64,000 nt of DNA, taken from positions 62,001 through 126,000 of the forward strand of contig WGMF01000032.1 in NCBI GenBank assembly GCA_016125215.1. Direction: 5' to 3'. Numbering within the stretch: position 1 is the stretch's first letter; every line of letters starts with the position of its first letter. Origin of the DNA: Phycisphaera sp. Lineage in GTDB: Bacteria; Planctomycetota; Phycisphaerae; Phycisphaerales; Phycisphaeraceae. The notes beneath the pieces are model-generated. The model was given only the letters and a program-made list of their open reading frames with translations. It made no database searches and was not told the origin of the DNA. Positions 24,242 through 64,000 of this stretch are shown piece after piece. A program made the translations under genes and the position numbers.

Positions 24242-24535
24242 GCGATGCTCCTTGTCGGATTTCAGAACGTGGTGGACGATGATTTTATCATCGCCAGACG
24301 CAAGGCGTTTAATAGCTGAAAACAAATGAATACCGGGCGGTACTGGTGATAAGCATGAGCCGATACAGAAACCACAGATTCCGCAGATTACACAGATTCA
24401 AAACCGATTTCCCGAGCATCAGTCTGTATCGATCTGTGAAATCTGCGCAATCTGCGGTTTCTTCCCCAGCCCCGATTGTTCGGCGTGTTCGTATCGGGTC
24501 ATGATGTTTATGGTTGTAGGCCGGTTCACACGCAG
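24242..24535. other. Spacer upstream of the DUF6288-like gene
   Basis: The 294 bases contain the gene's Shine-Dalgarno sequence (AAGGAG, minus strand, just above 24241) and a hairpin element of the GCAGATT family (24361-24463). Nothing else is recognised. Confidence 0.6.
24361..24463. repeat. GCAGATT-family hairpin element, copy 1
   Basis: The left arm (24361-24399) starts CGATACAGAAACC and holds three units of the form CGCAGATTNC. The right arm (24422-24463) is its complement, ending GGTTTCTTCCCC. One end therefore matches the CGATACAGAAACC terminus and the other the GGGGAAG(T)AACC terminus seen in other copies. Confidence 0.9.
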
Positions 24536-49283: not shown

Positions 49284-50195
49284 TTATGGGGTATGGATGT
49301 TGCAACTCAGGGCGGTGAGCGGGACACGGAGCATCAACAGCGCGCCGCCGCCGGCCGCGTTGGTCAGGCGGAGCGAACCGTTGAGCGAACGGGCGATGTT
49401 GTAGGCCAGCCCCAGCCCGATGCCGTGGCCCGTGGGTTTGTCGGTTTGACCGAATTGGAACCGTCCGTGGCTGTCGAGCAGGTCGGGGTTGAGGCCGGGT
49501 CCGTTGTCGGTCACGGTGAGGACCAGGTCATCGCCGTCGAGCCGGGTGGCAAGGCGGACGCCCGGCGAGTCTTGTTTGAGTGAGTTGCCGATCGCCGAGC
49601 GCATGGCGTCGAGGCTGTTGCGCAGCGCGTTGGTGATGACGGGGTAGACCGCCCCGCCGTCGAGTTCACGGCTGTGGACATCGAGGTCGCAGCGGATCGT
49701 CACCTTCAACTCGCGCGCTTCGTCCGCGACCATCTCGACCGCGTGCGCCACGCAGGCCGCAAGCGTCCGGGGGAGGTCCGCCGGATCGGGCTGCGCATGG
49801 ACGTGCGTGTGGCTGAACCCGGGCATCCACTGTCGGACGAGCGTGGCCATCTGCTGCATCGCGGTGTTGACGGTCTGCAGTCGGCCGATGAGTTCTTCGT
49901 CGGTCTCGTCGTGGCTGCTTTGCGTGTTCGTGTCGGCTTCATCACCGAGCGAACGCATGACCATGCGCACGTGACGCATCGACCCGTCGAGCAGGTTGGC
50001 CAATTCGTGTGCCAGCGCGGGGTGGGGGTTGGGATGAACAAGAGCCGGAGGGTCGGTTTGTGTGCGAGAGGGGACCGGCGAGGTTTCCGGGGGCATCGCC
50101 GGCTTTATAGGAGTTGAAACCGGGGGAACTTCCGGGGGCGGGGGAACTTCCGGGGGTGCGGGAACTTCCGGGGGGTTGTGGTTTGGGTGCGACAT
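49284..50195 (-). CDS. Sensor histidine kinase with repeat-built proline-rich N terminus
   Basis: A 303-residue soluble kinase. The first 45 residues are a PPEVP-repeat linker encoded by three CTTCCGGGGG decamers plus one AAAGCCGG-type palindrome. His63 lies in ALAHELANLL, and the ATP domain has NALRNSLDAM, DNGPG and GIGLGL. No sensor is recognised. It immediately precedes the NtrC-type regulator on the same strand and is its probable kinase. The N-terminal linker probably arose by repeat spread and is unlikely to be conserved. Confidence 0.85.
   Translation of the reverse strand: MSHPNHNPPEVPAPPEVPPPPEVPPVSTPIKPAMPPETSPVPSRTQTDPPALVHPNPHPALAHELANLLDGSMRHVRMVMRSLGDEADTNTQSSHDETDEELIGRLQTVNTAMQQMATLVRQWMPGFSHTHVHAQPDPADLPRTLAACVAHAVEMVADEARELKVTIRCDLDVHSRELDGGAVYPVITNALRNSLDAMRSAIGNSLKQDSPGVRLATRLDGDDLVLTVTDNGPGLNPDLLDSHGRFQFGQTDKPTGHGIGLGLAYNIARSLNGSLRLTNAAGGGALLMLRVPLTALSCNIHTP
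50087..50111. repeat. AAAGCCGG/CCGGGG palindromic element, copy in the kinase gene
   Basis: CCGGGGGCATCGCCGGC followed by TTTATAGG is, in reverse complement, the same AAAGCCGGCGATGCCCCCGG-type unit that recurs at 60892-60916 and 62929-62951. It reads in frame as part of the kinase N-terminal linker. Confidence 0.65.
50129..50174. repeat. Three CTTCCGGGGG decamers, 18-base period
   Basis: Exact copies start at 50129, 50147 and 50165, that is with an 18-base step. On the coding strand they read PPEVP three times, making the kinase linker. Each is preceded by AA (AACTTCCGGGGG). Confidence 0.9.
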
Positions 50196-50865: not shown

Positions 50866-53718
50866 CTACGCAAGTCCCAGAGCCGCCGCGTCACGGTCCG
50901 ATAGCATCCCGCCGTCGGCTCGCTCCCGGACGCTGCCATCGCGTTTCCACGAGCGCTCGCAACGCGGTTCGCTGCGCAGGTCGTGGACCGTGCAGGCGGG
51001 TGTTGTACCGGGTGTCACGACGAATCGGCTGACCATGCACAGGTCCGCCAGGTCGGTCGGGTCGAAGCTGGACAGGTCAACTTGATCTTTTACAACCGTG
51101 ACCGACAGGCCCATGTCGAGCGGGTTGTCGATGGACTGTTCGATGCGGGCCTGTTCGATAGCGCGCATCCACTCTTCGCGCAGGGGCATCACGCTTCCCC
51201 AAGCGGGGGAAACCTTTGCTCCGGTTGCGGTCGGGAAGGTTTCGAGGTGTACGCTCGTGGCGTTCTCGCCGTGCAGCGCGCGGCGGGCTTCGTCGGCGGT
51301 GTGCGGGAGGATCGGCGCGAGCAGGCGGACGAGTGCGTCGGTGATCGTGAACATCGCGGTCTGCGTTCGCCTTCGGCGCACACTTCCGGGGGCGTCGCAG
51401 TACAAGCGGTCCTTGGTGGCCGCGAGGTAGACCGCGCTGAGCGTGTCGTTGCAGAAGTTGAAGAGCGCCTCGTGCAGCCTGCGGTAGTGGTGGTTTTCAT
51501 AACCGTCCACCACGGTGGCGATGAGTTTGTTGAGTTCACCCAGCGCCCAGGCGTCGAGGCTCGTGCTGTCCGCGTCCGTGAAGGCGTGCGCGTTGGCCGG
51601 CGTGTAATCGTAAAGGTTGCTCAGCAGGAACCGGACCGTGTTGCGGACCTTGCGGTACTCCTCGCCCGCCGTCTTGAAGAACTCGATGTCGACCTTGATG
51701 TCGTTCTCGAACGGCAGCGACGAGACCCACCATCGGCAGACATCGGCCCCGTAATCCTTGAGCAGCGTCTCGACTTCGAGCGCATTGCCGAGCGACTTAC
51801 TCATCTTCCTGCCGTCGCGGTCGACCATGAACCCGTGCGTGAGGATGGCCTTGTACGGCGGTTTGCCCGTGGTGGCGACGGCGGGCAGGAGCGAAGCCTG
51901 AAACCACCCGCGGTGCTGGTCGGAGCCTTCGAGGTAAAGATCGGTCGGCAGGGCATCCGCGCCGAAGCGCTGACGGATCACCGAAGCCCAAGACGTGCCG
52001 GAGTCGAACCACACGTCAAAAATATCCGCACCTTTGGTAAAGCCGAGGGATGGCCATCCCTCGGCTTTGGCCCATGCGGGGGCGTCGGGGTCGATTTGCG
52101 GATCGTAATCCTTGAGCAATTCTTCCGGGGTGAGCTTGAACCACGCATCGGACCCGTGCTGGGCGACGACCTTCGCCACCGCACGCACGGAAGCGGCGGT
52201 CAGCAACGCTTCGCCGTCCTTGTTGTAAAACGCCGGGATCGGCAACCCCCACGAGCGTTGCCGCGAGATGCACCAGTCCGGCCGCGACTCGAGCATCCCG
52301 TGCATCCGGTTTCGGCCCCAGTCGGGGATAAACTTGACGCCGTTTTTCACGTGCTCCATTGAAAGTGAACGCAGCGACCGACCGCCGTCGCATTTCTCCA
52401 TGTCCACACTCACGAACCATTGTTCCGTCGCACGGAAGATGGTCGGCGTCTTGCTCCGCCAGTCGTGCGGGTAGCTGTGCGTGAAGCGGTGGGCGTGAAA
52501 CAGGTGATTAGACGCGGTGAGCTTTTCGAGCACCTTGGCGTTGGCGTCCCACACGACGATGCCTTGTAGCCAGTCCGGCGCGGTGTGGTCGAACGTGCCG
52601 TCGGCCAGCACGGGGCAGTAGATGTCCAGCTTCTCGCGCAGCCCGGTCTGGTAGTCCTCGACGCCGTGGCCCGGCGCGGTGTGGACCAGGCCCGTGCCGT
52701 CTTCGAGCGTGACGTAATCGGCGGTCACCACCGGGGAGACACGGTCGATGAACGGGTGACGGTATCTCACGCCCGCTTTGTGCAGTTCTTCACCCTTGCA
52801 CGTCGCCAGCCTTTGAACATCCGTCGCGCCGCCGGTGGCGAGCACCTTGTCCGCAAGGTCGTCCGCGAGGATGACGTGGTGCGTACGTCCCTGCCACTCA
52901 CACTTGAATAGACCGTACAACGCCCGCGGTGCCGCCGCCACCGCGAGGTTGGCCGGCAGGGTCCAGGGCGTCGTCGTCCAGATCATCAGCTGCACGGGGG
53001 CATTCGGACCAAGCTTCGCCGGTTCGTGCAACGGCGTCGGTGTCGTCACGTCGAACAATACATAGATGCTCGTGTCCTTGCGGTCCTCGTATTCCAGCTC
53101 CGCCTCGGCCAAGGCCGTCTGGTTGGCAATCGACCAGTGCACCGGCTTGAGCGCGCGGTACACCAAACCCTTCTCGACAAGCTGCGCGAAGACTTCGAGC
53201 GACGCCGCCTCGTAAGCCGGGTCCATCGTGAGATAGGGGTGGTCGTAGTCCGCGAGCGTGAGCAGCCTCTGCATCTGCCCGCCCTGGAGTTTGACGAATT
53301 TTTCAGCGTAAGCCTGGCACTTGCGCCGGACCTGGTAGGCCTCCATCGTCTTGGCCTTCTCGCCGAGCTCCTGCATGACCTTGTGCTCGATGGGCAAACC
53401 GTGGCAGTCCCAACCGGGGATGTAGGGGCAGTCGAAGCCCATCATCGTGCGCGAACGGACGACGAAGTCTTTCAGACACTTGTTGAGCAGGTGCCCGAGG
53501 TGGATCGACCCGTTGGCGTAAGGCGGCCCGTCGTGAAACACATATTTAGACGAACCCTTGCGTGCTGCGCGGATCGCCCGGTACAGGCCGCCGTCCTGCC
53601 AGCGCTTGAGAGAGGCCGGCTCGTTCTGCACGAGGTTGGCCTTCATCGCAAACGCCGTCTTGGGCAGGTTGAGCGTCTGTTTATAAGATCGCTTTTTCTC
53701 GTCGGTCGGATCGGTCAT
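50866..53718 (-). CDS. ileS: Isoleucyl-tRNA synthetase with an in-frame palindrome
   Basis: A 950-residue class Ia synthetase. HLGH is at residues 73-76, DWEGD-type and WSIANQTALAEAELEYEDR editing-domain blocks follow, and GRKMSKSLGN lies near residue 635. A perfect 30-base palindrome (52039-52068; half-site AAAGCCGAGGGATGG) reads as AEGWPSLG around residue 551-560, directly before KGADIFDVWFDSG. This is a loop that varies in homologues. It charges tRNA-Ile and is essential. Confidence 0.95.
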   Translation of the reverse strand: MTDPTDEKKRSYKQTLNLPKTAFAMKANLVQNEPASLKRWQDGGLYRAIRAARKGSSKYVFHDGPPYANGSIHLGHLLNKCLKDFVVRSRTMMGFDCPYIPGWDCHGLPIEHKVMQELGEKAKTMEAYQVRRKCQAYAEKFVKLQGGQMQRLLTLADYDHPYLTMDPAYEAASLEVFAQLVEKGLVYRALKPVHWSIANQTALAEAELEYEDRKDTSIYVLFDVTTPTPLHEPAKLGPNAPVQLMIWTTTPWTLPANLAVAAAPRALYGLFKCEWQGRTHHVILADDLADKVLATGGATDVQRLATCKGEELHKAGVRYRHPFIDRVSPVVTADYVTLEDGTGLVHTAPGHGVEDYQTGLREKLDIYCPVLADGTFDHTAPDWLQGIVVWDANAKVLEKLTASNHLFHAHRFTHSYPHDWRSKTPTIFRATEQWFVSVDMEKCDGGRSLRSLSMEHVKNGVKFIPDWGRNRMHGMLESRPDWCISRQRSWGLPIPAFYNKDGEALLTAASVRAVAKVVAQHGSDAWFKLTPEELLKDYDPQIDPDAPAWAKAEGWPSLGFTKGADIFDVWFDSGTSWASVIRQRFGADALPTDLYLEGSDQHRGWFQASLLPAVATTGKPPYKAILTHGFMVDRDGRKMSKSLGNALEVETLLKDYGADVCRWWVSSLPFENDIKVDIEFFKTAGEEYRKVRNTVRFLLSNLYDYTPANAHAFTDADSTSLDAWALGELNKLIATVVDGYENHHYRRLHEALFNFCNDTLSAVYLAATKDRLYCDAPGSVRRRRTQTAMFTITDALVRLLAPILPHTADEARRALHGENATSVHLETFPTATGAKVSPAWGSVMPLREEWMRAIEQARIEQSIDNPLDMGLSVTVVKDQVDLSSFDPTDLADLCMVSRFVVTPGTTPACTVHDLRSEPRCERSWKRDGSVRERADGGMLSDRDAAALGLA
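52039..52068. repeat. Perfect 30-base palindrome inside ileS
   Basis: The half-site is AAAGCCGAGGGATGG, and its complement follows directly with no spacer. It is related to the AAAGCCGGGGATGGCATCCCC-type element in valS and downstream of ffh. It encodes eight residues in frame, so it can persist in an essential gene. Confidence 0.9.
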
Positions 53719-53772
53719 GGGGGACGAATACTAACACACCCCCACGGCCCCCGGAAATTGACCCTCGTGACC

Positions 53773-55179
53773 TTACCGCGGGTCCGTCCCCGCCGCCGGT
53801 GCGATCCAGTCATAGACCGGCAGCTCCCGACCGTCGCGCAGGCGCAGGCCCGTGGGGTTGGCGGGGGATTGATGGGCGTCATCGGCAGAGGACAGGGCGT
53901 GGACCGAGAGGCTGACGATCGGTGTGTTTTCGATGGGCACGACCTCGCCGGGATCGGAGACGGCGTTGCCGTTGGCGTCGCACCAGACGGACAAGCCGCG
54001 CATCTCGGGGCCGGTCAACTCGCCATCGCCGTTGTCGTCGAGCATGGCGAGCGGGCCAAAGCCGTCGTTCCAGAAGAGCCACCATGTGACGTTGCCAAAG
54101 AGTTGTCTGCCGGAGGTGACGCGGCCGGTGTGCATCGGGTCCCACACAAGCAGGCAGGTGCCGGCGCGGGGCCAGTGGCGCTGCTCCGCAAGGCCGTCGC
54201 CGTCGAGGTCGAAATTCACTATCTCGCCGCCTTCGAGCCAGCGGCGCAGTTGATCGGTGTCGTGCGTTTGATTCATGTCGAAGACGATCGGCGTGACGGC
54301 ACCGATGGGCAGGTCCTTGAGCTTGTCGAGGTGGGCGGTGAGCTTGGCTTGTGTTTTATCGTCCAGCGCACCATCCGGGAGCAGCTTGGCCACGCGCAGT
54401 GCGCCCTGTGCGGCACCATGGCTCACAAGTGAAGTGATGCCCGCGATCGGCTGCGTATCCAGCGCCGCGTCTCTCTTGGCGCTCAATTCGTAGGCCTGCA
54501 TATAGCTGTTGAGTGAAGCTTCGAGCCAGCGTTGTGTGTCAAACTTCTGGACCGGATTGTGGACGACCTGCAAGCTCGTGGGTTCCAGGCCGAGTTCCCC
54601 TGCACGGCGGGCGTACTCTTCTCGGATACTCGCAAGGCCGATGTGGTAAAGGGCGTTGTCGGGTTTCATCTCCACCGCGCGGAGAAAACAGCGGACCGCC
54701 TCTTGCGCATGGTGGTCGAGTTCCTCGGCGGGGGGTTCGGGCGGTTGCCAGTGGGCGTCCTGCAGCGCCTTGTAGTGTTTGCCAAACGCGCGGGCGTAGG
54801 CCTTGCCGTCCTTGGATTCGTCCAGCCCCTGTTTGGCAAGCTCTTCGTCCGCAAGACGTTTGGCTTCGGCTTCGAGGGCCTGCTGCTGGTAGAAGCTCTT
54901 GTAGATCGCCCAGTCCGCGGGGATGTCGGGCTTGCTGCCTTCGGGTTTGTTGCCGAATTCAAACGACGGCACCGCGCGCGACTTCTGCGTGTAGGCCAGG
55001 TAGTGGATGCGACCGAGCGTGTATTGCCCGTCCGCGTCGTCGGGGTGGGCTTCAATGTATTTCGTCGCCTTGGCCACGAGCCGATCCACCGGCGCCAGCT
55101 CCGGCGGCATGAACATGGCCCGCGAGACCGTGGCGAACAACGCAACACCCATCAGGGACAGGCAAAATCTGCGGGTCAT
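53773..55179 (-). CDS. Secreted TPR protein with EF-hand-like motifs
   Basis: A 468-residue protein with a signal peptide (LSLMGVALFATVSRA). The first half has TPR-like helical units (KYIEAHPDDADGQYTLGRIHYLA; RCFLRAVEMKPDNALYHIGLASI). The C-terminal part has Ca-binding loop candidates (DLDGDGLAEQ, DDNGDGELTGPE, DANGNAVSDPGE), which recall EF-hand/dockerin-type sites and thrombospondin-like repeats. The function is unknown; it is probably extracytoplasmic and calcium-responsive. The stop lies 55 bases from the ileS start. Confidence 0.75.
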   Translation of the reverse strand: MTRRFCLSLMGVALFATVSRAMFMPPELAPVDRLVAKATKYIEAHPDDADGQYTLGRIHYLAYTQKSRAVPSFEFGNKPEGSKPDIPADWAIYKSFYQQQALEAEAKRLADEELAKQGLDESKDGKAYARAFGKHYKALQDAHWQPPEPPAEELDHHAQEAVRCFLRAVEMKPDNALYHIGLASIREEYARRAGELGLEPTSLQVVHNPVQKFDTQRWLEASLNSYMQAYELSAKRDAALDTQPIAGITSLVSHGAAQGALRVAKLLPDGALDDKTQAKLTAHLDKLKDLPIGAVTPIVFDMNQTHDTDQLRRWLEGGEIVNFDLDGDGLAEQRHWPRAGTCLLVWDPMHTGRVTSGRQLFGNVTWWLFWNDGFGPLAMLDDNGDGELTGPEMRGLSVWCDANGNAVSDPGEVVPIENTPIVSLSVHALSSADDAHQSPANPTGLRLRDGRELPVYDWIAPAAGTDPR

Positions 55180-55253
55180 GAATGTTCTCCTGTTAATGGA
55201 CGGACGACAGCGTCAGAAATTAGACGAACAGACGGGGTCAGGGTTCCGAATCG

Positions 55254-55766
55254 CTACAACAACTCTGTGATGGGTCTGGAGAGTCTGGCGTAGTCTTGTG
55301 CGGGTATCGAGACGGTATCCCAGCGCGGGCTGCGTTGTTTCATGTGGTCTTTGTAGTCGTCGAGCGTGATGGCCAGCACAGCGTACCAACGCTCACCCAC
55401 GGTAAAAACATCCTGGAACAACGCCTCCGGGGGTGACGCCTCGCACCAATACAAAAACGCAAACGCCCCCCGGAAGTTGGCCCCGAAGATGTTTTCCCAG
55501 CGTTCGAGGCTCTCCACGTCGTTGCGTGTGACCCAGTTGTCCAGGCTCTTGCGCGACCTGCCCGTGTGCTTGCGTCCCTTCACGTCCACGAGCAGGTTCG
55601 GGCCGTGCTCGGAGTAGACGACGAAATCAAAACTCTTGAGCGACACCGGCGGGTGCCTGCCCGCGTCCAGCGCCCGCCGCGCCTCGTCCACCGCGACATA
55701 GGGCACCGTCCGGTCACGCAGGTAACGCTCGAACGCCGCGTCGTAATGGAACCGCCGCTGAGCCAT
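55254..55766 (-). CDS. HYExAFE-type protein
   Basis: A 170-residue protein starting MAQRRFHYDAAFERYLR, matching the HYExAFE motif as HYDAAFE. Such proteins are short and known to me from planctomycetes. A block of FDFVVYSEHGPNLLVDVKGRKH has the spacing of a PD-(D/E)XK nuclease core (Asp, then DVKG), so a nuclease-like fold is possible. The function is not established. A hairpin element (55772-55961) begins 7 bases upstream of the start and separates it from hisS. Confidence 0.7.
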   Translation of the reverse strand: MAQRRFHYDAAFERYLRDRTVPYVAVDEARRALDAGRHPPVSLKSFDFVVYSEHGPNLLVDVKGRKHTGRSRKSLDNWVTRNDVESLERWENIFGANFRGAFAFLYWCEASPPEALFQDVFTVGERWYAVLAITLDDYKDHMKQRSPRWDTVSIPAQDYARLSRPITELL

Positions 55767-55771
55767 GATGT

Positions 55772-55961
55772 TTAGCCGCCGATGAACGTAGATGGACGCA
55801 GATGAAATCCCAAACAAAACATGTAGACAGGATAACAGGATGATCAGGATGAACGGGATCAAGTCAATAAATTCAGTTCTGTTCCCGTCAATCCCGAAAA
55901 TCCGGTGACCCCGTCCACCTCTCTGTCTTTATCCGCGTTCATCTGCGTTCATCTGCGGCTA
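55772..55961. repeat. Nested hairpin element: GATGAACGC outer arms, CAGGAT inner units
   Basis: The outer left arm (55772-55807) starts TAGCCGCCGATGAACG; the outer right arm (about 55928-55961) ends ATCTGCGGCTA, its complement. Inside are CAGGATAACAGGATGATCAGGATGAACGGG-type 9-base units (55828-55860) facing weaker complements (55880-55918). The right edge (TAGCCGC on the minus strand) supplies the hisS stop codon. Confidence 0.85.
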
Positions 55962-57248
55962 CTGCTTCATCTCTTTCGCCAGTTGAGTGATCGCCACGTC
56001 GCGTTGTTCTCCGGTGTCGAGGCACTTGAGTTGCGCTGCGTCCGTGTCGTCGCTGAGGATGATGGCGTAACGGGCCTTACAACCTGATGCATCCTTGAGC
56101 AGCTTGCCCACGTTGCGTGTGGCCTTGTAGCTCATGCGCACGTGCAGGCCGGATCGACGCAGCGACGCCACCACCCCCGGAAGTTGAGCCACCGCACCCT
56201 CGGAAGCCGCGAGGACAAAAGCGTCCGGCCGGGGCGCGTACTGGCTGGGGATGAGCTTCTTGTCGATGAGCACGTTGGTGAGCACCACGTCGCCCATGCC
56301 CAGGCCGACCGCCGGCATCGACGGCCCGCCGAAAAGCTCGATGAGCTGGTCGTATCGCCCCCCGCCGGCCATCGCTCGCTCCGCGCCGCTGACCTCGTGG
56401 ACCTCGAACACCGTGCCCGTGTAATACGCAAGACCCCGCACGATCCCCAGGTCATACTCACACCAATCCGCAACGCCGAACGCCTTGAGCTGTTCATTCA
56501 ACGCGCCAAGTTCATCCGTATCAGAATCGTCCTCCATGCCGATCGATCGGCGGAGGTGTGCCAGGTCGTTGGCGTCGTATCTCCGTCGGCAGGTCTGGTC
56601 GAAACGCGCCACGGTCGGCTCGTCCAGGCCCAAAGCCGCAGCCCCCTTGGTGAACTCGTCCGGCGGGACCTTGTCACGTCGATCTAACAGGTTGAAAGCG
56701 TCGAGCATCTTGTCGTCGCTCACGCCGATGCGCGAGAGGATGTGCTTCACGGTTGCGCGGTGGCTGATGCGCACACGCACCTGCTCGGGCGTCAGCCCCA
56801 ACTCGGCTAACAGGTCGATAGCCGTGAAGATGCACTCGGCGTCGGCCAAAGGCGGTTCCAGGCCGAGGATGTCGATGTTCCACTGCCAGAACTCGCGCAA
56901 ACGCCCGCGCTGGGGCCGCTCGGCACGGCAGAGATTGGGCGTGCAGAACCACTTGATCGGGCGCGGCAGGCTGCTTGCCTTTTCCGCCACCATACGCGCC
57001 AGCGTCGGTGTGAACTCGGGGCGGATCGCCAGCTCGCGCTCGCCCCGGTCGGTGAAGTGGAACAGCTCGCTGACGATCCCCTCGCCCGACTTGACCTTGT
57101 AAAGGTCCAGCGTCTCGAAGATCGGCCCGTCCACCTGCTCAAACCCGTTACGCACCGACACGCGCCGCCACGCGTCGAGCAGGTAGCTGCGCCACGCGCA
57201 GTCGTCGGGATAAAAATCACGTGTGCCTTTGGGGGCTTGAAGTCGCAT
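55959..57248 (-). CDS. hisS: Histidyl-tRNA synthetase
   Basis: A 429-residue class II synthetase. Motif 2 region (PQRGRLREFWQWNIDILG) and motif 3 (AMAGGGRYDQL, PAVGLGMGD) are present, as are the HisRS-specific RGLAYYTGTVFE and the C-terminal anticodon-binding domain. The stop (TAG) is at the edge of the hairpin element that follows, so the last residues (KQ*) may have been altered. The start at 57248 gives MRLQAPKGTRDF, the family N terminus. Confidence 0.96.
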   Translation of the reverse strand: MRLQAPKGTRDFYPDDCAWRSYLLDAWRRVSVRNGFEQVDGPIFETLDLYKVKSGEGIVSELFHFTDRGERELAIRPEFTPTLARMVAEKASSLPRPIKWFCTPNLCRAERPQRGRLREFWQWNIDILGLEPPLADAECIFTAIDLLAELGLTPEQVRVRISHRATVKHILSRIGVSDDKMLDAFNLLDRRDKVPPDEFTKGAAALGLDEPTVARFDQTCRRRYDANDLAHLRRSIGMEDDSDTDELGALNEQLKAFGVADWCEYDLGIVRGLAYYTGTVFEVHEVSGAERAMAGGGRYDQLIELFGGPSMPAVGLGMGDVVLTNVLIDKKLIPSQYAPRPDAFVLAASEGAVAQLPGVVASLRRSGLHVRMSYKATRNVGKLLKDASGCKARYAIILSDDTDAAQLKCLDTGEQRDVAITQLAKEMKQ

Positions 57249-57296
57249 GGGGTGACTGGTGACGGGTGAATAGTAACTGGTGACTGGTGAGTGACG
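57249..57296. repeat. GGTGACTGG tandem units upstream of hisS
   Basis: GGTGACTGGTGACGGGTGA followed by further ACTGGTGACTGGTGAGTGAC units lie just ahead of the hisS start, in the reverse sense of the tract at 3297-3345. The unit length is about 8-9 bases. Confidence 0.6.
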
Positions 57297-57369
57297 CTGT
57301 GGGGCAAGAGGATACCAGAGGCTTATGGAGTACCTCAAATAAACAGGTCACTGGGAACAGACGGGGCCT

Positions 57370-57572
57370 CGATACAGAAACCGCAGATTTCGCAGATTGC
57401 GCAGATTCAGAGCAAAGCGATCAAACCCCCGAGACACCGAGGACACCGAGAAGGATGCGATGCACATGTATACCCGACTCTTCTCGGCGCTCTCGGTGTC
57501 TCGGTGGCAATTCATTCTTCTCATCTGCCTTGAAAATCTGCGTCATCTGCGAAATCTGCGGTTTCTGTATCG
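57370..57572. repeat. Nested composite element: GCAGATT outer arms, GAGACACCGAG inner arms
   Basis: The outer arms (57370-57409, starting CGATACAGAAACC, and 57522-57572, ending GGTTTCTGTATCG) enclose inner arms (57425-57453 and 57480-57505) built of ACACCGAGG-type 9-base units. The same composite is found at 59110-59308. It lies between hisS and the methyltransferase gene, which accounts for most of this 345-base spacer. Confidence 0.9.
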
Positions 57573-57593
57573 ACGCCCCCAGATTGTTGACAC

Positions 57594-58457
57594 TCACTTC
57601 TTCACCCCCACGACATACGCGATCCACACCTTGTCCGACGGGGCGCTGATGCGTCTGCGGTACACGTCGTTGCCCTCGCCCTCTTTGTTGGTGCCCTCCC
57701 AGTAGACGTGCGACTCGGCAAAGCCGGCCTCGTCGAGCATCTCACGGACTTCGGGGATGGTCCAGAACCGCCAGTGGTACTCGAAGGCGCGTTTCATCTC
57801 GCTCTTGTCGCGGAACTGGAAGTGGATGTAGAAACTGGCCGAGTGGGAGATCGGGTCGTAGCGGGCCTGTTCCCAGAGGTAGGTAAATCGGCGCGGGTTG
57901 CCCTCGACGATCGGCTCTTCGCTGATGGGCCTGCGGTCGGTGTGGTCTTCCATGATGCAGTCGCCCCCGCCCATCATGTCGAGGATGACGACGCCGCGCT
58001 TGGCGAGGTTGCGGTGCATGGCTTTGAAGTATCTCACAACCTCGGGGCGAGTCTTGAAAATCCAGAACGAAAAATTCTGCGCCGCGACGATGTCGGCCTT
58101 GGGGCCTGCGACTTTGAGGACGTTCTCCCGCATGAGCGTGATGCGTGGCCTGGCCGAGGGGCGGATGCGCGAGAGGTTGTGGGCCATGCCCCACTCGAGC
58201 GGTTCGGGGTCGAGGTCGACGCCGATCGCGACGCGGTCCTTGTGCCCCTTAACCCACTCGCAACACACAGCGAACGTGCCGCAGAAGTCTTCACGCAGGA
58301 TTTTCGGGTCGCTCGAAAAGGCGTCGCGGTAGACCCGTCTGAAAAATGGCGTCTCGTGCGAGGGGTTCTGCACCGAGCGCTGGTAGAGGTCGTACTTGTC
58401 GGCGGTGCGCGCAAGGGGTTGGGTGTGCGGGGCCTTGTCTTGCTTGCGTCGTGCCAT
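57594..58457 (-). CDS. Class I SAM-dependent methyltransferase
   Basis: A 287-residue protein. Motif I is divergent (REDFCGTFAVCCEWV), motif II acidic loop is GVDLDPEPLEWG and motif post II is ADIVAAQNFSFWIF. The family resembles small-molecule or sugar methyltransferases but I cannot name a substrate. Start at 58457 gives MARRKQDKAPH; an upstream frame to 58631 has no plausible ribosome-binding site and overlaps the divergent rsmD. Confidence 0.8.
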   Translation of the reverse strand: MARRKQDKAPHTQPLARTADKYDLYQRSVQNPSHETPFFRRVYRDAFSSDPKILREDFCGTFAVCCEWVKGHKDRVAIGVDLDPEPLEWGMAHNLSRIRPSARPRITLMRENVLKVAGPKADIVAAQNFSFWIFKTRPEVVRYFKAMHRNLAKRGVVILDMMGGGDCIMEDHTDRRPISEEPIVEGNPRRFTYLWEQARYDPISHSASFYIHFQFRDKSEMKRAFEYHWRFWTIPEVREMLDEAGFAESHVYWEGTNKEGEGNDVYRRRISAPSDKVWIAYVVGVKK

Positions 58458-58518
58458 GTTGACGCGATGATAAAACAACATGCCCAACCGTACCACCCAC
58501 CCATCGGCCAGATAAATC

Positions 58519-59118
58519 ATGCGCATCATCGCCGGCACCCATCGCAGCAGAACAATCCTTGCCCCGCCCGACGCAAGGACGACGCGTCCGATCACCGACC
58601 GCGTAAAACAAAGCCTCTTTGACCTGCTCACCGCGCGTGAGCTGATGGGCGGTCACGTGCTCGACCTTTTTGCGGGCACGGGCAGCCTCGGGTTGGAGGC
58701 CCTTTCGCGCGGGGCGGACCGCTGCACGTTCGTCGAGCGAGACCGGTCGATCCGTGAACTGCTCGAAAAAAACCTCGACACGCTGGGCTTCACCGCACAG
58801 GCCGCGGTGCTCAAGGTCGACTCGCTGGCTGCCAACTGGGGTGTGCTCGTGCCCCCCGCAAGTGTGAGGGTGGTGTTTTGCGACCCGCCGTTCGTGATGA
58901 CCAGCGACCCCGACAAACTTCCGCGCGTCACCGCCCTGATCGAAAAACTCGCCGACCGCCTCGAACCCGGCGGGGCCTGCGTCCTGCGTACCGAAACACA
59001 CATCGAACCCCCCTCCCCCGTCGGCTACGCCCACGCCGAACACCACCCCTACGGCTCGATGGCGCTGCACCTGTATGCGCGATCGGAAACCAGTGGCGAA
59101 ACGGACACGGGGAAGTAA
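58519..59118 (+). CDS. rsmD: 16S rRNA (guanine966-N2)-methyltransferase
   Basis: A 199-residue methyltransferase: MRIIAGTHRSRTILAPP, TRPITDRVKQSLFDLL, HVLDLFAGTGSLGLEALSRG and the catalytic VVFCDPPF. RsmD methylates G966 of 16S rRNA. Its stop codon, together with the preceding Gly-Lys, is read from the edge of a GCAGATT element (GGG AAG TAA), as in rmlD. Divergent from the methyltransferase gene, 61 bases apart. Confidence 0.95.
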   Translation: MRIIAGTHRSRTILAPPDARTTRPITDRVKQSLFDLLTARELMGGHVLDLFAGTGSLGLEALSRGADRCTFVERDRSIRELLEKNLDTLGFTAQAAVLKVDSLAANWGVLVPPASVRVVFCDPPFVMTSDPDKLPRVTALIEKLADRLEPGGACVLRTETHIEPPSPVGYAHAEHHPYGSMALHLYARSETSGETDTGK

Positions 59119-59308
59119 CCGCAGATTTCGCAGATGACGCAGATTGCAAGGCAGCTAAGAACAAGGCATGAACCCCCGAGACACTAAGAGCACCGAGAAG
59201 CGTTGGGTGATTGAGCGCTCGGCATGAATCTCGCTGACCTTGGTGCCTCGGGGGTTCGTTTTGATCTCTGAATCTGCGTCATCTGCGAAATCTGCGGTTT
59301 CTGTATCG
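59110..59308. repeat. Nested composite element, second copy, abutting rsmD
   Basis: The outer left arm (59110-59158) begins GGGGAAGTAACCGCAG and the outer right arm (59264-59308) ends GGTTTCTGTATCG. The inner arms (59172-59199 and 59229-59258) have CCCCCGAGACACTAAG and GCACCGAG units. The arrangement is the same as at 57370-57572, in the opposite direction of the ends. It fills most of the rsmD-ffh spacer. Confidence 0.9.
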
Positions 59309-59370
59309 CCTGCCGGTTCTATCCAAGGCACATTCTGCCCATCGCACGCCGCGCTGCTACGATATCCCCC

Positions 59371-60855
59371 ATGTTTGGCCACCTCACCGACAAGTTCAAC
59401 GACGCCTTCCGCAAGCTCTCGGGCCGGGGCAAGATCAGCGAGTCCAACGTCCGCGAGGCGATGGAGGATGTCCGCACCGCCCTGCTCGAAGCCGACGCAC
59501 ACTACGAGGTCGTCGAGTCCTTCTGTCAATCCGTGCAGGCCAAGGCCCTTGGCCAGGAGGTGCTCTCGAGCGTCAAGCCCGGGCAGCAGATGGTCAAGAT
59601 CGTCTACGACGAACTCGTGGCGCTCATGGCCGGCGAGGGTGAGGAACCCGGTGTATTGGAAGTCCACCCCGGGCCGACCATCGTGATGATGTCCGGCTTG
59701 CAAGGCTCGGGCAAGACGACGACGTGTGGCAAACTCGCCGGCTACCTCAAGAAGAAAAACAAGAGCGTCATGCTCTGCGCCGCCGACCTGCAGCGCCCCG
59801 CCGCGGTGAAGCAGCTCGAAGTGTTGGCCGACCAGGTCCGCGACGAAGCCCCCGGAGGTGGCAAGGTCCTGTTTTACGCCGAGCCGGACAAGTGCAAGGA
59901 ATACGGCCAGGCGGTGGGCGTAGCGGTCAAGGTGTGTCAGAACGCCCTCGCCAAAGCCCGCGCTGAAAAAGTCGACTTCCTTATCCTCGACACCGCCGGC
60001 CGATTGCACGTCAACGACCAGCTCATGGGCGAGCTGCGCCAAGTCAACACCGCACTCAACCCGCACCAGGTCTTCCTTGTCATCGACGCCATGACCGGGC
60101 AGGACGCGGTCAACTCTGCCAAGGCCTTCAACGACCAGCTCGAACTCGACGGCGTGATCCTGACCAAGTTCGACTCCGACACGCGCGGCGGGGCAGCGCT
60201 ATCGGTGCGACACGTCACCGGCAAGCCGATCAAGTTCATCGGTGTCGGCGAGAAGCTCGATGCGCTCGAAGAGTTCCACGCCCAGCGCATTGCCTCGCGG
60301 ATCCTCGGTATGGGCGACGTCGTCAGCCTCGTCGAAAAAGCCCAGGAACAAGTCAGCGCCGAAGAGGCCGCCGCGCTCCAGGAAAAGATGGCCAAGGGCA
60401 AGATGACGATGGAGGACTTTTTGAGTCAGCTCCACGCCATCCGCAAGATGGGCTCCATGAAATCTCTCCTGGGAATGCTCCCGGGGATCGGCCAGCAACT
60501 AAAGGACATCAACCTCGACGACAAACAGATTGACCGCACCGAAGCGATCATCCGTTCGATGACCAAAGACGAACGCGCCGACGCCGACTTGCTCGATAAC
60601 TCACGCCGACGACGGATTGCCAAAGGCTCCGGCTCAACCACGCAGGACGTCTCGCAACTCGTCAAGGGCTTCAACATGGTCAGCCAGATGGGCAAACAGA
60701 TGGCCAGCATGAGCATGATGAGCCGACTCAAATCGATGGTCGGCATGGGCGGCGCGGATTTGGCGGCGATGTCCGCAGGCCAGGCCCCCCGGCTCGCCGG
60801 CCCAAGCAAACCCGACCGCCCCAAGTTCAAACAACGCAAACGCCGGAGCCGATAG
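59371..60855 (+). CDS. ffh: Signal recognition particle protein Ffh
   Basis: A 494-residue SRP54 GTPase. The N domain (about 1-95), the G domain with GLQGSGKTTTCGKLA, DTAGRLHVN, TKFDSDTRGGAA and the RILGMGDV C-terminal junction, and a Met-rich M domain (MKSLLGMLPGIGQQL, MVSQMGKQMASMSMM) are all present. It recognises signal sequences with 4.5S RNA and delivers ribosomes to FtsY. No 4.5S RNA gene was found in the window. A basic tail (KFKQRKRRSR) ends the protein. Confidence 0.97.
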   Translation: MFGHLTDKFNDAFRKLSGRGKISESNVREAMEDVRTALLEADAHYEVVESFCQSVQAKALGQEVLSSVKPGQQMVKIVYDELVALMAGEGEEPGVLEVHPGPTIVMMSGLQGSGKTTTCGKLAGYLKKKNKSVMLCAADLQRPAAVKQLEVLADQVRDEAPGGGKVLFYAEPDKCKEYGQAVGVAVKVCQNALAKARAEKVDFLILDTAGRLHVNDQLMGELRQVNTALNPHQVFLVIDAMTGQDAVNSAKAFNDQLELDGVILTKFDSDTRGGAALSVRHVTGKPIKFIGVGEKLDALEEFHAQRIASRILGMGDVVSLVEKAQEQVSAEEAAALQEKMAKGKMTMEDFLSQLHAIRKMGSMKSLLGMLPGIGQQLKDINLDDKQIDRTEAIIRSMTKDERADADLLDNSRRRRIAKGSGSTTQDVSQLVKGFNMVSQMGKQMASMSMMSRLKSMVGMGGADLAAMSAGQAPRLAGPSKPDRPKFKQRKRRSR

Positions 60856-60876
60856 GCACCGCCACCGGAACCCGAA

Positions 60877-60916
60877 CCCCCGGAAGTAGACCATAAAGCC
60901 GGCGAGGGCATCCCCG
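60877..60916. repeat. CTTCCGGGGG decamer and AAAGCCGG element after ffh
   Basis: An exact decamer (60877-60886, in reverse sense) is followed by CATAAAGCCGGCGAGGGC and ATCCCCGG. This is the non-coding counterpart of the elements inside valS (62929-62951) and the kinase gene (50087-50111). Confidence 0.8.
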
Positions 60917-60986
60917 GTCCCACGATCCCCCGGTCCCCCACACCCGGATTGAAACCCGCTTCCCCCAATCCCTGTAAAATACCCTC

Positions 60987-61205
60987 ATGGCCAAAAAAGA
61001 CCGCAGTGACTGGCCCGTCCGCAAGTTCAACTCACACGAGGAGGCCGACGCCGCGGACGAGGCCGAGTTGCGGAACACCACGCCCGCTCAACGTTTCCTC
61101 ATGGTCGACCTCATCAGCCGAACCGCCTATGCCCTCCTCACCGAAGCTCGAACTCAACGACGACTTCCGCGACATGCTTGGCCTGTTGCAAAGGTTTGGC
61201 GTTGA
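60987..61205 (+). CDS. Small protein partner of the nucleotidyltransferase
   Basis: A 72-residue hydrophilic protein: MAKKDRSDWPVRKFNSHEEADAADEAELRNTTPAQRFLMVDL. The N-terminal half recalls the small proteins (WPVRKF.SHEEAD) that often precede DUF6036-type nucleotidyltransferase genes. The last 20 residues overlap the start of the next gene and look unrelated, so the natural C terminus may have been changed by a frameshift. It is probably a partner, antitoxin-like or adaptor, but there is no direct evidence. Confidence 0.5.
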   Translation: MAKKDRSDWPVRKFNSHEEADAADEAELRNTTPAQRFLMVDLISRTAYALLTEARTQRRLPRHAWPVAKVWR

Positions 61206-61617
61206 GTTCCTCGTCGTCGGCGGCTACGCGGTCGGTGTGCACGATCGGCCACGCGCCACCGGCGATCTCGACATCTGGGTCAGGCCGACACCCGACAACG
61301 CGAACAGGCTCTGGCAGGCGCTCGTAGAGTTTGGTGCCCCACTCACCGGCGTGCGGGAAAACGATTTTGCACGCATGGGGCTGGTCTACCAGATGGGCTG
61401 TGAGCCACAACGCATCGACGTCTTGACCTCCCTCGCGGCGGTGGGCTTCGATGAAGCCTGGCCCCAGCGTGTCGAGGTCGAGATCGATGGCGTCAAAGTC
61501 TACGTCCTCGGCCGCGACCACCTGGTCCGCAACAAACAATCCGTCGCGCGGGACCAGGACCTGCTCGACGCGAAAAACATCATCAAGAGAAACGCACCCC
61601 CAACCGGCAAGCCATGA
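61129..61617 (+). CDS. MNT/DUF6036-like nucleotidyltransferase
   Basis: A 162-residue protein beginning MPSSPKLELNDDF. The signature GVEFLVVGGYAVGVHDRPRATGDLDIWV has the nucleotidyltransferase GG..GxR.T.DxD core with the catalytic Asp pair. Such proteins occur in small two-gene modules that include toxins or antitoxins (AbiE- or HEPN/MNT-like). It overlaps the small upstream protein by 77 bases and its stop overlaps the valS start by 4 bases (ATGA). Start 61174 is an alternative. Confidence 0.75.
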   Translation: MPSSPKLELNDDFRDMLGLLQRFGVEFLVVGGYAVGVHDRPRATGDLDIWVRPTPDNANRLWQALVEFGAPLTGVRENDFARMGLVYQMGCEPQRIDVLTSLAAVGFDEAWPQRVEVEIDGVKVYVLGRDHLVRNKQSVARDQDLLDAKNIIKRNAPPTGKP

Positions 61618-64000
61618 CCACCGAACTCCCCCCCAAATACGCCCCCGCCGAGGTCGAGCCGCACATCGCGCAGCGCTGGGCCGACGCCCGCGCGTTTGCC
61701 GCCGACCCAACTTCCGGGGGCGCGCCGTACTGCATTGTCATCCCCCCGCCCAACGTCACCGCGGCGCTGCACCTGGGCCACGCGCTCAACAACACACTCC
61801 AGGACATCCTCATCCGCTACCACCGGATGCTCGGCGATAACACGCTCTGGATGCCGGGCACGGACCACGCCGGCATCGCGACACAAACCGTTGTCGATAA
61901 ACGCCTCCAATCCGAGGGCAAGCCCGCGCTCAAGGAACACAAAAAGCTCGAAGACTCAGGCCAAAACGGCCGTGAAAAGTTCATCGCCCTCGTGCAGGCG
62001 TGGAAAGATGAATACGAACAGCGCATCCTCGGCCAACTCAAAGCCATGGGCTGCTCGTGCGACTGGCAGCGCACCCGCTTCACCATGGACGACACCTGCG
62101 CCAAAGCCGTGCGCGAGGCCTTCTTCCGCCTGTTCAAAGACGGCCTGATCTACCGGGGCAAGCGTCTGGTCAACTGGGACCCCGCGACACAGACCGCCCT
62201 GGCGGATGACGAAGTCGAGATGGAGGAGATCGACGGGCACTTCTATTACCTGAAGTATCCGCTCGAAGACGGATCGGGCACGGTGACCGTGGCCACCACG
62301 CGACCCGAGACGATGCTCGGCGACACCGCCGTGGCGATGAACCCCAAAGACCCACGCGCCCCCGGATTGCGCGGCAAGAAGGTCCGCCTGCCGATTGTGA
62401 ATCGCGTGGTGCCGATCATCGAAGACGAGTACGTGGTGCTGCCCAACCCCGCCCCCGGAAGCGGCGACGAAAAAGCGAGATATTCCTCGGGCTTCTTGAA
62501 AGTCACCCCCGCCCACGACCCCAACGACTACGAGCTGGGCAGGAAACACAACCTGCCCACGATCAACATCATGGCCCCCGACGGGACGATCAGTGACCAA
62601 CACGGTTGGCCCCCGGAAGATTTCAAAGGAGGCGACGCGGAGTTTCTTTTAGGCCTCGACCGCTTCGAGGCCCGCAAAGCCGTCGTCGAGTGGTTCCGTA
62701 GTAACAACCTGTTAGAAGAAGTCAAACCCTACCGCCACACCGTCGGCCACAGCTACCGCTCACATGTGCCGGTTGAACCCTACCTGAGTGACCAGTGGTA
62801 TGTAAAAGTGACCGACGACCGCCTCGCCGGCGCGGCGTTACGCGCGCTGGAAACCCCGAACGCCCACGGACTCCCGTCCGTGGGCACCCATGCTCAGGAG
62901 AGCATGGGCGTTCAATATTCCAATCATAAAGCCGGGGATGGCATCCCCGGTCCTGCCGCAGGCGCCGCCCCCTGGGAAGGCACCTTACGCTTCACCCCCG
63001 AGCGTTACGCCAACACCTTCCGGGGGTGGCACGAAAACATCCGTGACTGGTGCATCAGCCGACAACTCTGGTGGGGACATCGCATCCCGGTGTGGAAATC
63101 AAAGATTGATCTGTTAACAGAATTTAATCATGTGTTAAAAAGGCCGGAATATACAGATACACGGCGACCAAATCCCTATCTGATCAACTTCCGAACAAGA
63201 AAAATACGATTTGGGAATCCACTTCCTGAACTTCAACAGGGTGAAGTCATTATTCTTCACACCGTCCGTCCCCTACCTGATGGCGGCATAGAGCATTATT
63301 ACTGTCCTCAGGCGGGTGATAATACTCTCGAGCAATTTCTCGACGAGAATGCGGTCCGTGACCCCGACGTCCTCGACACCTGGTTCTCCTCCGCGCTCTG
63401 GCCGATCTCGACGATGGGGTGGCCCAACGAAACAACCGAACTCAAGACGTGGAACCCTTCCAACGTCCTCTGCACCGCGCGGGAGATCATCACGCTCTGG
63501 GTCTCGCGGATGGTGATGTTCAACCTCTACTTCCGGGGGTGTCTGCCCTTCACCGATGTGTTCATCCACGCGATGATTCAGGACGGCGAGGGGCGGAAGA
63601 TGTCCAAATCGCTGGGTAATGGTGTGGACCCGATCGACATCATCCACACGCACGGTTCGGACGCGATGCGCTACACGCTCACAGCGATGACGACGCACAC
63701 GCAGGACGTGCGCATGCCCGTCGAGAAAGACGCCGCGACGGGGCGGAACACCTCGCCGCGCTTTGATCTTGGGCGCAACTTTGCCAACAAGCTGTGGAAC
63801 GCGGTGCGGTTTGCGCTGAGTCATTTGACGCCTGCTGATGGCGATGACCGGCGTGGGGACACGCCGGCTCTGACCTCGGCGTTATCGCTGCCCGACAAGT
63901 GGGTCCTCTCGCGTCTTGCGCACACCGCGGATGCGGCGACGATGGCGCTTAATCAGTTCCAGTTCTCCGTGTATGCCCAGACGTTGTACGACTTTGTCTG
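61614..64000 (+). CDS. valS: Valyl-tRNA synthetase, 5' part (truncated by window end), with in-frame insertions
   Basis: The first 795 codons or so of ValRS, open to the end of the window. It begins MTTELPPKYAPAEVEPHIAQ; ALHLGHALN is near residue 55, LKAMGCSCDWQRTRFT and the editing-domain stretch TTRPETMLGDTAVAMNP follow, and GRKMSKSLGNG is at about residue 662. Two segments do not fit: residues about 416-459 (encoded by hairpin repeats 62859-62990) and about 495-575, encoded by a low-GC patch (63096-63340). The start overlaps the preceding stop by 4 bases. Confidence 0.95.
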   Translation, partial: MTTELPPKYAPAEVEPHIAQRWADARAFAADPTSGGAPYCIVIPPPNVTAALHLGHALNNTLQDILIRYHRMLGDNTLWMPGTDHAGIATQTVVDKRLQSEGKPALKEHKKLEDSGQNGREKFIALVQAWKDEYEQRILGQLKAMGCSCDWQRTRFTMDDTCAKAVREAFFRLFKDGLIYRGKRLVNWDPATQTALADDEVEMEEIDGHFYYLKYPLEDGSGTVTVATTRPETMLGDTAVAMNPKDPRAPGLRGKKVRLPIVNRVVPIIEDEYVVLPNPAPGSGDEKARYSSGFLKVTPAHDPNDYELGRKHNLPTINIMAPDGTISDQHGWPPEDFKGGDAEFLLGLDRFEARKAVVEWFRSNNLLEEVKPYRHTVGHSYRSHVPVEPYLSDQWYVKVTDDRLAGAALRALETPNAHGLPSVGTHAQESMGVQYSNHKAGDGIPGPAAGAAPWEGTLRFTPERYANTFRGWHENIRDWCISRQLWWGHRIPVWKSKIDLLTEFNHVLKRPEYTDTRRPNPYLINFRTRKIRFGNPLPELQQGEVIILHTVRPLPDGGIEHYYCPQAGDNTLEQFLDENAVRDPDVLDTWFSSALWPISTMGWPNETTELKTWNPSNVLCTAREIITLWVSRMVMFNLYFRGCLPFTDVFIHAMIQDGEGRKMSKSLGNGVDPIDIIHTHGSDAMRYTLTAMTTHTQDVRMPVEKDAATGRNTSPRFDLGRNFANKLWNAVRFALSHLTPADGDDRRGDTPALTSALSLPDKWVLSRLAHTADAATMALNQFQFSVYAQTLYDFV
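62859..62951. repeat. Multi-hairpin palindromic element inserted in frame in valS
   Basis: An outer stem GAACGCCCA (62859-62867) pairs with TGGGCGTTC (62906-62914). Inside it are two adjacent hairpins: CCCACGGAC/GTCCGTGGG (62864-62872 and 62877-62885) and CCCATGCTC/GAGCATGGG (62888-62896 and 62901-62909). A third hairpin, CCGGGGAT/ATCCCCGG (62933-62940 and 62944-62951), follows. The whole keeps the reading frame. Confidence 0.9.
63096..63340 (+). other. Low-GC patch within valS
   Basis: Over 63121-63300 G+C falls to about 38-48% per 60 bases by my count, against about 60-65% just outside. The codons include several TTA, ATA, AGA and AGG, which are rare elsewhere in the window. The translation stays in frame (KSKIDLLTEFNHVLKR onward) up to DPDVLDTWFSSAL. 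It replaces the usual zinc or linker segment of ValRS. Confidence 0.7.

Follow-up and report, generated by a model that had tools for sequence, protein, structure and literature searches.

REP-like palindromes and in-frame Y1 transposases in the ValRS loop of Phycisphaerales suggest mobile DNA sheltering in an essential gene

Introduction

Why does palindromic DNA sit, in frame, inside two essential tRNA synthetase genes? The question is raised by a 64,000-nucleotide stretch of DNA from Phycisphaera sp. (Phycisphaerales; assembly GCA_016125215.1, contig WGMF01000032.1, positions 62,001-126,000 of the forward strand), which we call the window and which comes from a genome of 4.04 Mb (G000); here palindromic units lie within ileS, within valS and within the linker of a histidine-kinase-like open reading frame (ORF) (Table 1). 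An initial annotation of the window had read the coding copies as an element selected for being translatable. Following the units through their own genome and through relatives, we arrive at an explanation that we hold, for its three parts taken jointly, to be very probable: the palindromes would be repetitive extragenic palindrome (REP)-like dispersed elements, of the kind moved by Y1 single-strand transposases of the REP-associated tyrosine transposase (RAYT) type; such REP/RAYT mobile elements would repeatedly colonise permissive loops of essential enzymes; and the loop that in valyl-tRNA synthetase (ValRS) separates the FTPERY block from the editing domain would be a recurrent landing site in Phycisphaerales. 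Furthermore, the transposase inserts in valS genes suggest mobile DNA sheltering in an essential gene.

Results

Seven of the 35 relatives in which the valS loop could be read, out of 40 sampled, hold in that loop a complete REP-transposase-REP element of the Y1/RAYT type, in frame and free of stops. By motif, five of these inserts (G004, G015, G032, G033 and G036) belong to class 3 of the Y1 transposases (TnpA-Y1); those of G028 and G040 are RAYTs by the model NF047646 (87.4 and 90 bits, cut-off 80), two transposase classes occupying one site. In both RAYT cases a single ORF matches both models, valS at 935 bits with REP_Tyr_transpos at 87 in G028, and at 945 with 90 in G040. The seven insert-bearing open frames measure 1216-1373 amino acids (aa). 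Across the 41 genomes, our own included, a valS match was found in 40 (the exception being G002), and in each of the seven the matches at E <= 1e-50 are pieces of one gene, spanning two contigs in G036; hence no second valS was seen in the insert-bearing genomes at that threshold. The length of a valS frame is not diagnostic of an insert, as G037 has 1284 aa with a short loop. In G029, a Y1 match lies in an open frame of 1401 aa, which proved to be a shadow frame of another gene.

Inverted REPs border every insert (G015 and G033 have ACGAGCCGCGACCGTGAGGGAGCGG ... CCGCTCCCTCACGGTCGCGGCTCGT; in G004 and G036 the two ends carry changes that match each other). The class-3 REP end is dispersed in 17 of the 41 genomes, namely in all seven with an insert and in 10 of the 34 others (the 34 including five unread at the loop), an association with Fisher p of 0.0009, or 0.008 for class 3 alone. 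The class-3 inserts score above the cut-off of PF01797 and carry the HUH, W[TA] and Y....Q motifs that define TnpA-Y1 class 3: all 10 aligned inserts keep H..H, W-T and Y....Q without change (L312 and G033 left out), and G033, aligned separately, has W-A. Their ends begin ACGAGCC, in which a plain CnGA foot, the 5' foot of class-3 flanking structures, was not recognised by eye. Proteins were taken for part of the transposase matches in relatives, and five loci that yielded none were left out of further use.

The arrangement recurs beyond the sampled relatives. GTDB genome contigs scanned with the class-3 inserts gave 252 confirmed relatives, of which the best 80 were kept; these include 11 in frame in valS (G004, G015, G032 and G036 among them), one in alaS and one in a DUF1156 gene, the remaining loci, two methylase cases apart, being free-standing, in shadow frames or, in L368, broken. 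The valS cases thereby total 14, 12 of class 3 and two RAYTs. Read as DNA, all 12 fused ORFs examined (11 valS, one alaS) have REPs on both sides of the transposase, often multicopy and translated in various frames (TSRDREGA, NEPRPSGSG, PLPHGRGS); inverted dispersed REPs at both ends, as in a RAYT/REPtron, are found in the seven genomes and in 12 of 12 fused ORFs, dispersal being scored for the class-3 REP. In seven of the 12 there is no ATG, GTG or TTG in the 40 codons upstream of the LHG motif, and in the other five there are one or two. The alaS case (L355, 3005-7021) carries a class-3-like transposase and REPs in frame inside a gene scoring 813 bits; more REP-like peptides occur farther along this gene. 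In L332 (3068-6880), the transposase and repeat arrays lie in frame inside the DUF1156 gene, which is covered on both sides; this gene matches the anti-phage-associated DUF1156 model weakly, NF042963 scoring far below its cut-off. The long frames of L330, L318, L353 and L331 were judged by eye to be shadow frames, and two methylase ORFs with a transposase near the end (L334, L358) reach contig ends and were not counted.

Whether one valS-dwelling lineage underlies the class-3 cases was approached with a transposase tree of 84 rows (79 of the best 80 of 252 relatives plus five others, the broken frame of L368 being dropped). A free search grouped 11 of the 12 class-3 valS rows, and constraining all 12 together gained 44 log-likelihood units (approximately unbiased test, pAU 0.94); given this higher likelihood, a single valS lineage fits. 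The alaS and methylase transposases fall outside it. The least saturated pair, L304/L306 (dS 1.22), has a ratio of nonsynonymous to synonymous substitutions (dN/dS) of 0.19. On a host tree built from ValRS (43 rows, without G002, which has no valS match, and G018, G030, G031 and G034, unread at the loop), the insert changes state 10 times, at least eight of them on starred branches; shuffled labels average 12 changes and 51 of 500 shuffles are as low, so presence is neither clearly clustered nor scattered. Identity between inserts does not mirror that between their hosts (rho -0.03 over 66 pairs). Imposed on the inserts, the host topology is rejected at pAU 0.0008, or at 0.005 when an open fork of the host tree is settled the way that suits the inserts; the class-3 lineage disagrees with the host tree.

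Such a pattern calls to mind inteins and homing endonucleases, which are mobile elements that occupy one set position in an essential gene, in frame, with a patchy distribution and a tree that disagrees with that of the host. In these respects the valS inserts are alike; unlike inteins, nothing in them points to splicing, and no Hint/splicing (intein) domain appears among the Pfam matches (E up to 0.001) of five fused ORFs. It is possible, although we rate it well short of an even chance, that the class-3 transposase spreads horizontally among valS genes in a homing-like manner without splicing, either by its own activity or by recombination in the conserved valS flanks. The single site, the fit to one lineage, the 10 changes on the host tree and the discordance with host relationships would all be expected of such an element. 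Against it stands the absence of clear clustering or scatter in the presence label; moreover, loss after vertical descent, combined with noise in 171 columns, could produce a similar pattern, as could the transfer of entire valS genes. The genus g29 also speaks against it: G028 carries the other transposase class, and although G032 and G036 have sister ValRS sequences, their class-3 inserts share only 50% identity.

Table 1. Features of the window bearing on the palindromic elements (CM, covariance model)
Feature	Position	Strand	Basis
ileS, isoleucine--tRNA ligase, 950 aa	50866..53718	-	ORF; TIGR00392 842 bits, cut-off 621
Type A REP-like element, perfect 30-bp palindrome AAAGCCGAGGGATGGCCATCCCTCGGCTTT in ileS	52039..52068	.	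palindrome and dispersed family
valS, valine--tRNA ligase	61614..64000	+	crosses window end; open frame 1090 aa in genome
REPIN-like inverted pair of hairpin units, GAACGCCCACGG...CCGTGGG / CCCATGCTC...GAGCATGGGCGTTC, in frame in ValRS loop	62858..62913	.	
Type B REP-like unit within valS, translated as HKAGDGIPGP	62925..62955 (about)	+	CM R1, E 6e-10
Histidine-kinase-like ORF, HATPase_c domain	49284..50195	-	ORF and domain match
Type B element, lengthened loop, read as PIKPAMPPETSPVP, in N-terminal linker of histidine-kinase-like ORF	50070..50109	-	CM R1, E 3.9e-4
Type B element between genes, 3' of ORF 59371-60855	60892..60922	+	CM R1, E 2.2e-8

In the window's own valS, repeat units occupy the same ValRS loop, between its ALRAL and LRFTPERY segments. 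The loop has 55 residues as against 12 in the ValRS of T. thermophilus (1gax; gap between aligned stretches), a length that would fit a tolerant site. The GAACGCCC family gave six pattern matches in the loci examined, two of them in this valS; among the examined loci elsewhere in the genome, four single units related to the hairpin pair are present. The initial annotation had described a four-stem element; its palindromic units are present, although we count three plus a short outer pairing, so that the description was close. In a relative, G024 (L240), the same loop holds RHGGTEARRHEE, which, judged from the protein, looks like a translated CACGGAGGCACGG-type repeat, and in G021 and G013 (L246, L247) the loop is some 60-80 aa longer than in most, with a sequence that by eye is not transposase-like.

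A search of the whole genome, as the initial annotation had proposed, shows the short palindromes to be members of dispersed families that also enter other genes. The palindrome in ileS, for whose like the chance expectation is 1.5e-4 per 64 kb, is indeed perfect over its full length; allowing up to three mismatches, it recurs at 27 places in the genome against none for a reversed control. With covariance models, this type A family (R2) has at least 35 places and the type B family (R1) at least 55 at E < 0.01, these being lower bounds because only 150 of 3674 first-look candidates for type A, and of 6896 for type B, were scored; together, palindromes of 20-40 nt are dispersed at no fewer than 90 places. 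The units that had been treated as one related set divide: the valS unit at about 62925-62955 and those in the kinase linker and between genes near 60892 are of type B, and the ileS palindrome belongs to the separate type A. Copies inspected by eye begin CATAAAGCC (type B) or AAAGC (type A). The genome also encodes seven Y1_Tnp ORFs (L049-L055), at least six of which are bordered on both sides by palindromes of their own; these differ from one ORF to another, several REP/RAYT families being present in one genome.

Type A is not confined to this genome. Its core, with up to two mismatches, occurs in 11 of the 41 genomes; among the matches listed, five of these hold 21-40 copies each. The arms change while remaining paired, both within our genome (GCCGAGGG/CCCTCGGC and GCGGAGGG/CCCTCCGC) and, among the matches listed, between relatives: differing but paired arms are seen in G006, G009, G014, G023 and G024, for instance GCCCGGAG/CTCCGGGC in G014 and GCCCACGG/CCGTGGGC in G023. 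An AAAGCC...GGCTTT hairpin could also be a bidirectional transcription terminator, of which the ileS copy would be a stray. At 15 of 35 type A copies the left flank scores best on the plus strand and the right flank on the minus strand, both with a stop, as between convergent genes, against one copy in the opposite arrangement (by eye, low scores included). A terminator inside ileS should do harm, however, the arms vary between genomes while pairing stays, and REPs in general favour convergent gaps too (PMC3733652); we consider the terminator reading unlikely.

The ileS palindrome is translated as KAEGWPSLGF in a variable linker preceding DIFDVWFDSG. Compared over 29 relatives' loci each (a few wrong-frame rows being left out), the ileS and valS sites both differ among the relatives aligned, which bears out the initial observation that the units fall in regions variable among homologues. 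Across the 30 ileS loci read, that of the window among them, perfect palindromes of the type A family are confined to G000 and G014, each with the arms of its own genome's dispersed family; the G014 copy lies at the same codons and reads KARRWPSPGF. At these codons G036 has a decayed palindrome (KAQGWPTLGF). G024 has an 18-nt palindrome of a different kind, certain other relatives have short tandem repeats, and most remaining loci have an unrelated linker. The initial annotation had named conserved ancestral residues as the finding that would undo its proposal, and the G014 and G036 versions do keep alive the reading of the decapeptide KA..WPS.GF as an ancestral IleRS segment with no insertion at all. 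The restriction of perfect palindromes to two genomes, with different arms, and the unrelated linker of most other loci make this, to our mind, improbable and the least likely of the alternatives. The shared codons of G014 and G036 point either to one old insertion with co-evolving arms or to repeated insertion. A second element, TSRDREGA, is found at another place in the ileS of G014.

How often do such units enter genes? A codon-usage model trained on 33 ORFs of the window, which on those same ORFs ranked the correct frame above every incorrect one in 91% of 40-codon windows, placed six of the 90 copies in frame inside genes and missed others, including those in valS and in the kinase. Fifteen candidates were additionally read by hand, and the coding-looking ones scanned against curated models. 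For at least eight of the 90 copies, the ORF that holds the copy in frame matches a curated family (ileS, valS, the kinase, a peptidase C26, HscA/Hsp70, bioA, an MFS/HEAT protein and a SecG tail), and four further candidates (L001, L026, L031, L120) are uncertain; the majority of type A and type B copies are extragenic. The bioA element (residues 291-304) falls inside a gap between hidden Markov model stretches ending at 283 and resuming at 310, and the HscA element (residues 264-275) adjoins a break, the second stretch starting at 281 (PF00012) or 267 (NF003520). The coding copies named at the outset all keep uninterrupted frames, as claimed. One frame of type B contains a TAA, and at least three others are read (HKAGDG, IKPAM, TGDAIAG).

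For the short units, selection for translatability is not supported. Several frames are read, most copies are extragenic, and no stop interrupts any of the six frames in 51% of shuffled palindromes of equal composition; that the palindrome is specially suited to translation is therefore unproven. In-frame survival in an essential gene follows from selection on the host gene alone. At slightly less than even chances, we take seriously the account that all of this is neutral debris, with REPs and RAYTs inserting anywhere and in-frame hits in tolerant loops surviving, without their being adapted either to translation or to valS as a site. The curated-match copies in several frames, the ease with which palindromes stay open, the presence of the same REP in different frames within one ValRS and the occurrence of other repeat-like sequence in the ValRS loop, such as that of G024, all agree with it. 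What sits poorly with neutral debris is the valS transposase lineage, which, with invariant catalytic residues, a dN/dS of 0.19, no stops and often no start, appears too persistent.

Other repeats of the window may be recorded here. The decamer CTTCCGGGGG occurs on either strand at 24 places in the window, within and between genes, against 0.22 expected (examples at about 50130-50175, 51383, 61711 and 63017), and its iteration recalls HIP1; the enlarged loop of the kinase-linker element contains a CCCCCGGAA string resembling it. The same kinase linker additionally holds CCCCCGGAAGT-type repeats (PPEV). Repeats of the ACCGCAGATTTCGCAGATGACGCAGATT type with nearby inverted partners, together with CGAGACACCGAGGACACCGAG repeats, lie at 24356, 38551, 44969, 47583, 57365 and 59103. 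The ORF preceding the extragenic type B copy is presumably Ffh-like.

Discussion

In-frame REPs as such are already known: intragenic REPs of the GTAG/CGTC super-families and Rickettsia palindromic elements, including cases in tRNA synthetases, are in print (PMC3733652). As here, the accessible part of that work describes dispersed palindromes that are translated in frame in conserved proteins, yet are mostly intergenic and often in convergent gaps; it differs in its GTAG/CGTC tag and in the size of its inserts, which are short (up to 82 aa), whereas here an in-frame transposase gene is carried. TnpA-Y1 class 3 has likewise been described, as genes of about 178 aa in Planctomycetes and Acidobacteria, with NHVH, W[TA] and Y....Q motifs and high-copy REP-like structures (PMC6006769); here the same type of protein forms a domain of ValRS or AlaRS. 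The RAYTs of PMC2817692 share the placement of the transposase between inverted, genome-dispersed REPs, as do the G028 and G040 inserts that pass NF047646, the difference being the in-frame position inside an essential enzyme gene. An entire transposase carried as a ValRS domain is apparently unreported, since we found none described in ValRS or AlaRS in the open-licence literature.

A plausible sequence of events runs as follows. Working on REP hairpins in single-stranded form, a Y1 transposase could place REPs, or whole elements, at many sites; within an essential gene, the survivors would be those insertions that are in frame, stop-free and in a tolerant loop. The essential gene would then supply expression to the inserted element, and the ValRS would work with the additional domain. 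Deletion would also have to preserve the frame, and therefore the gene would shelter its passenger from removal.

Several points weigh against this account of REP/RAYT elements colonising tolerant loops. The movement of REPs by the transposase is something we infer rather than observe; no GTAG/CGTC tag was seen by eye at either type A or type B copies, and no type A or type B unit lies within 0.3-1.5 kb of the seven Y1_Tnp ORFs of the genome. The class-3 insert compared with the RAYT equivalog NF047646 (that of G004) reaches 30.9 bits, below the cut-off of 80. The counts of REP dispersal include the inserts' own ends, and the one-lineage test covers the best 80 of 252 relatives from a search that started from valS inserts. 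Congruence was tested under LG+G4 over 171 columns, the host tree comes from ValRS and has weak forks, and dS is near saturation. A more divergent second valS would escape the 1e-50 threshold, the loop was unreadable in five of the 40 relatives (G002, G018, G030, G031 and G034), and nearly all records are metagenome-assembled genomes.

The whole-transposase elements in valS nevertheless may offer a better case for adaptation to translation than the short palindromes, because they are stop-free and in seven of 12 have no start within 40 codons upstream. Perhaps, and we put this forward only tentatively, the class-3 inserts represent a valS-specific transposase lineage, without a stop and mostly without a start, living as a ValRS domain, maintained in an active state by selection and passing between valS genes at a single site in a homing-like way without splicing. 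If this were true, the palindromic REPs of the window's own valS would be remnants of such elements or be related to them.

Translation as a route to the persistence of selfish DNA has been discussed for Rickettsia palindromes, where the inserts are short. With 14 valS genes carrying an in-frame transposase, of two classes at one loop of an essential and universal enzyme, the idea becomes testable, through aminoacylation by the fusion, cutting of REP DNA and protection by the gene. Where long fusions of this kind are taken for annotation errors and removed, they may go unnoticed; in the work on TnpA-Y1, a few unexpectedly long proteins per subclass were set aside as fusions or annotation errors (PMC6006769).

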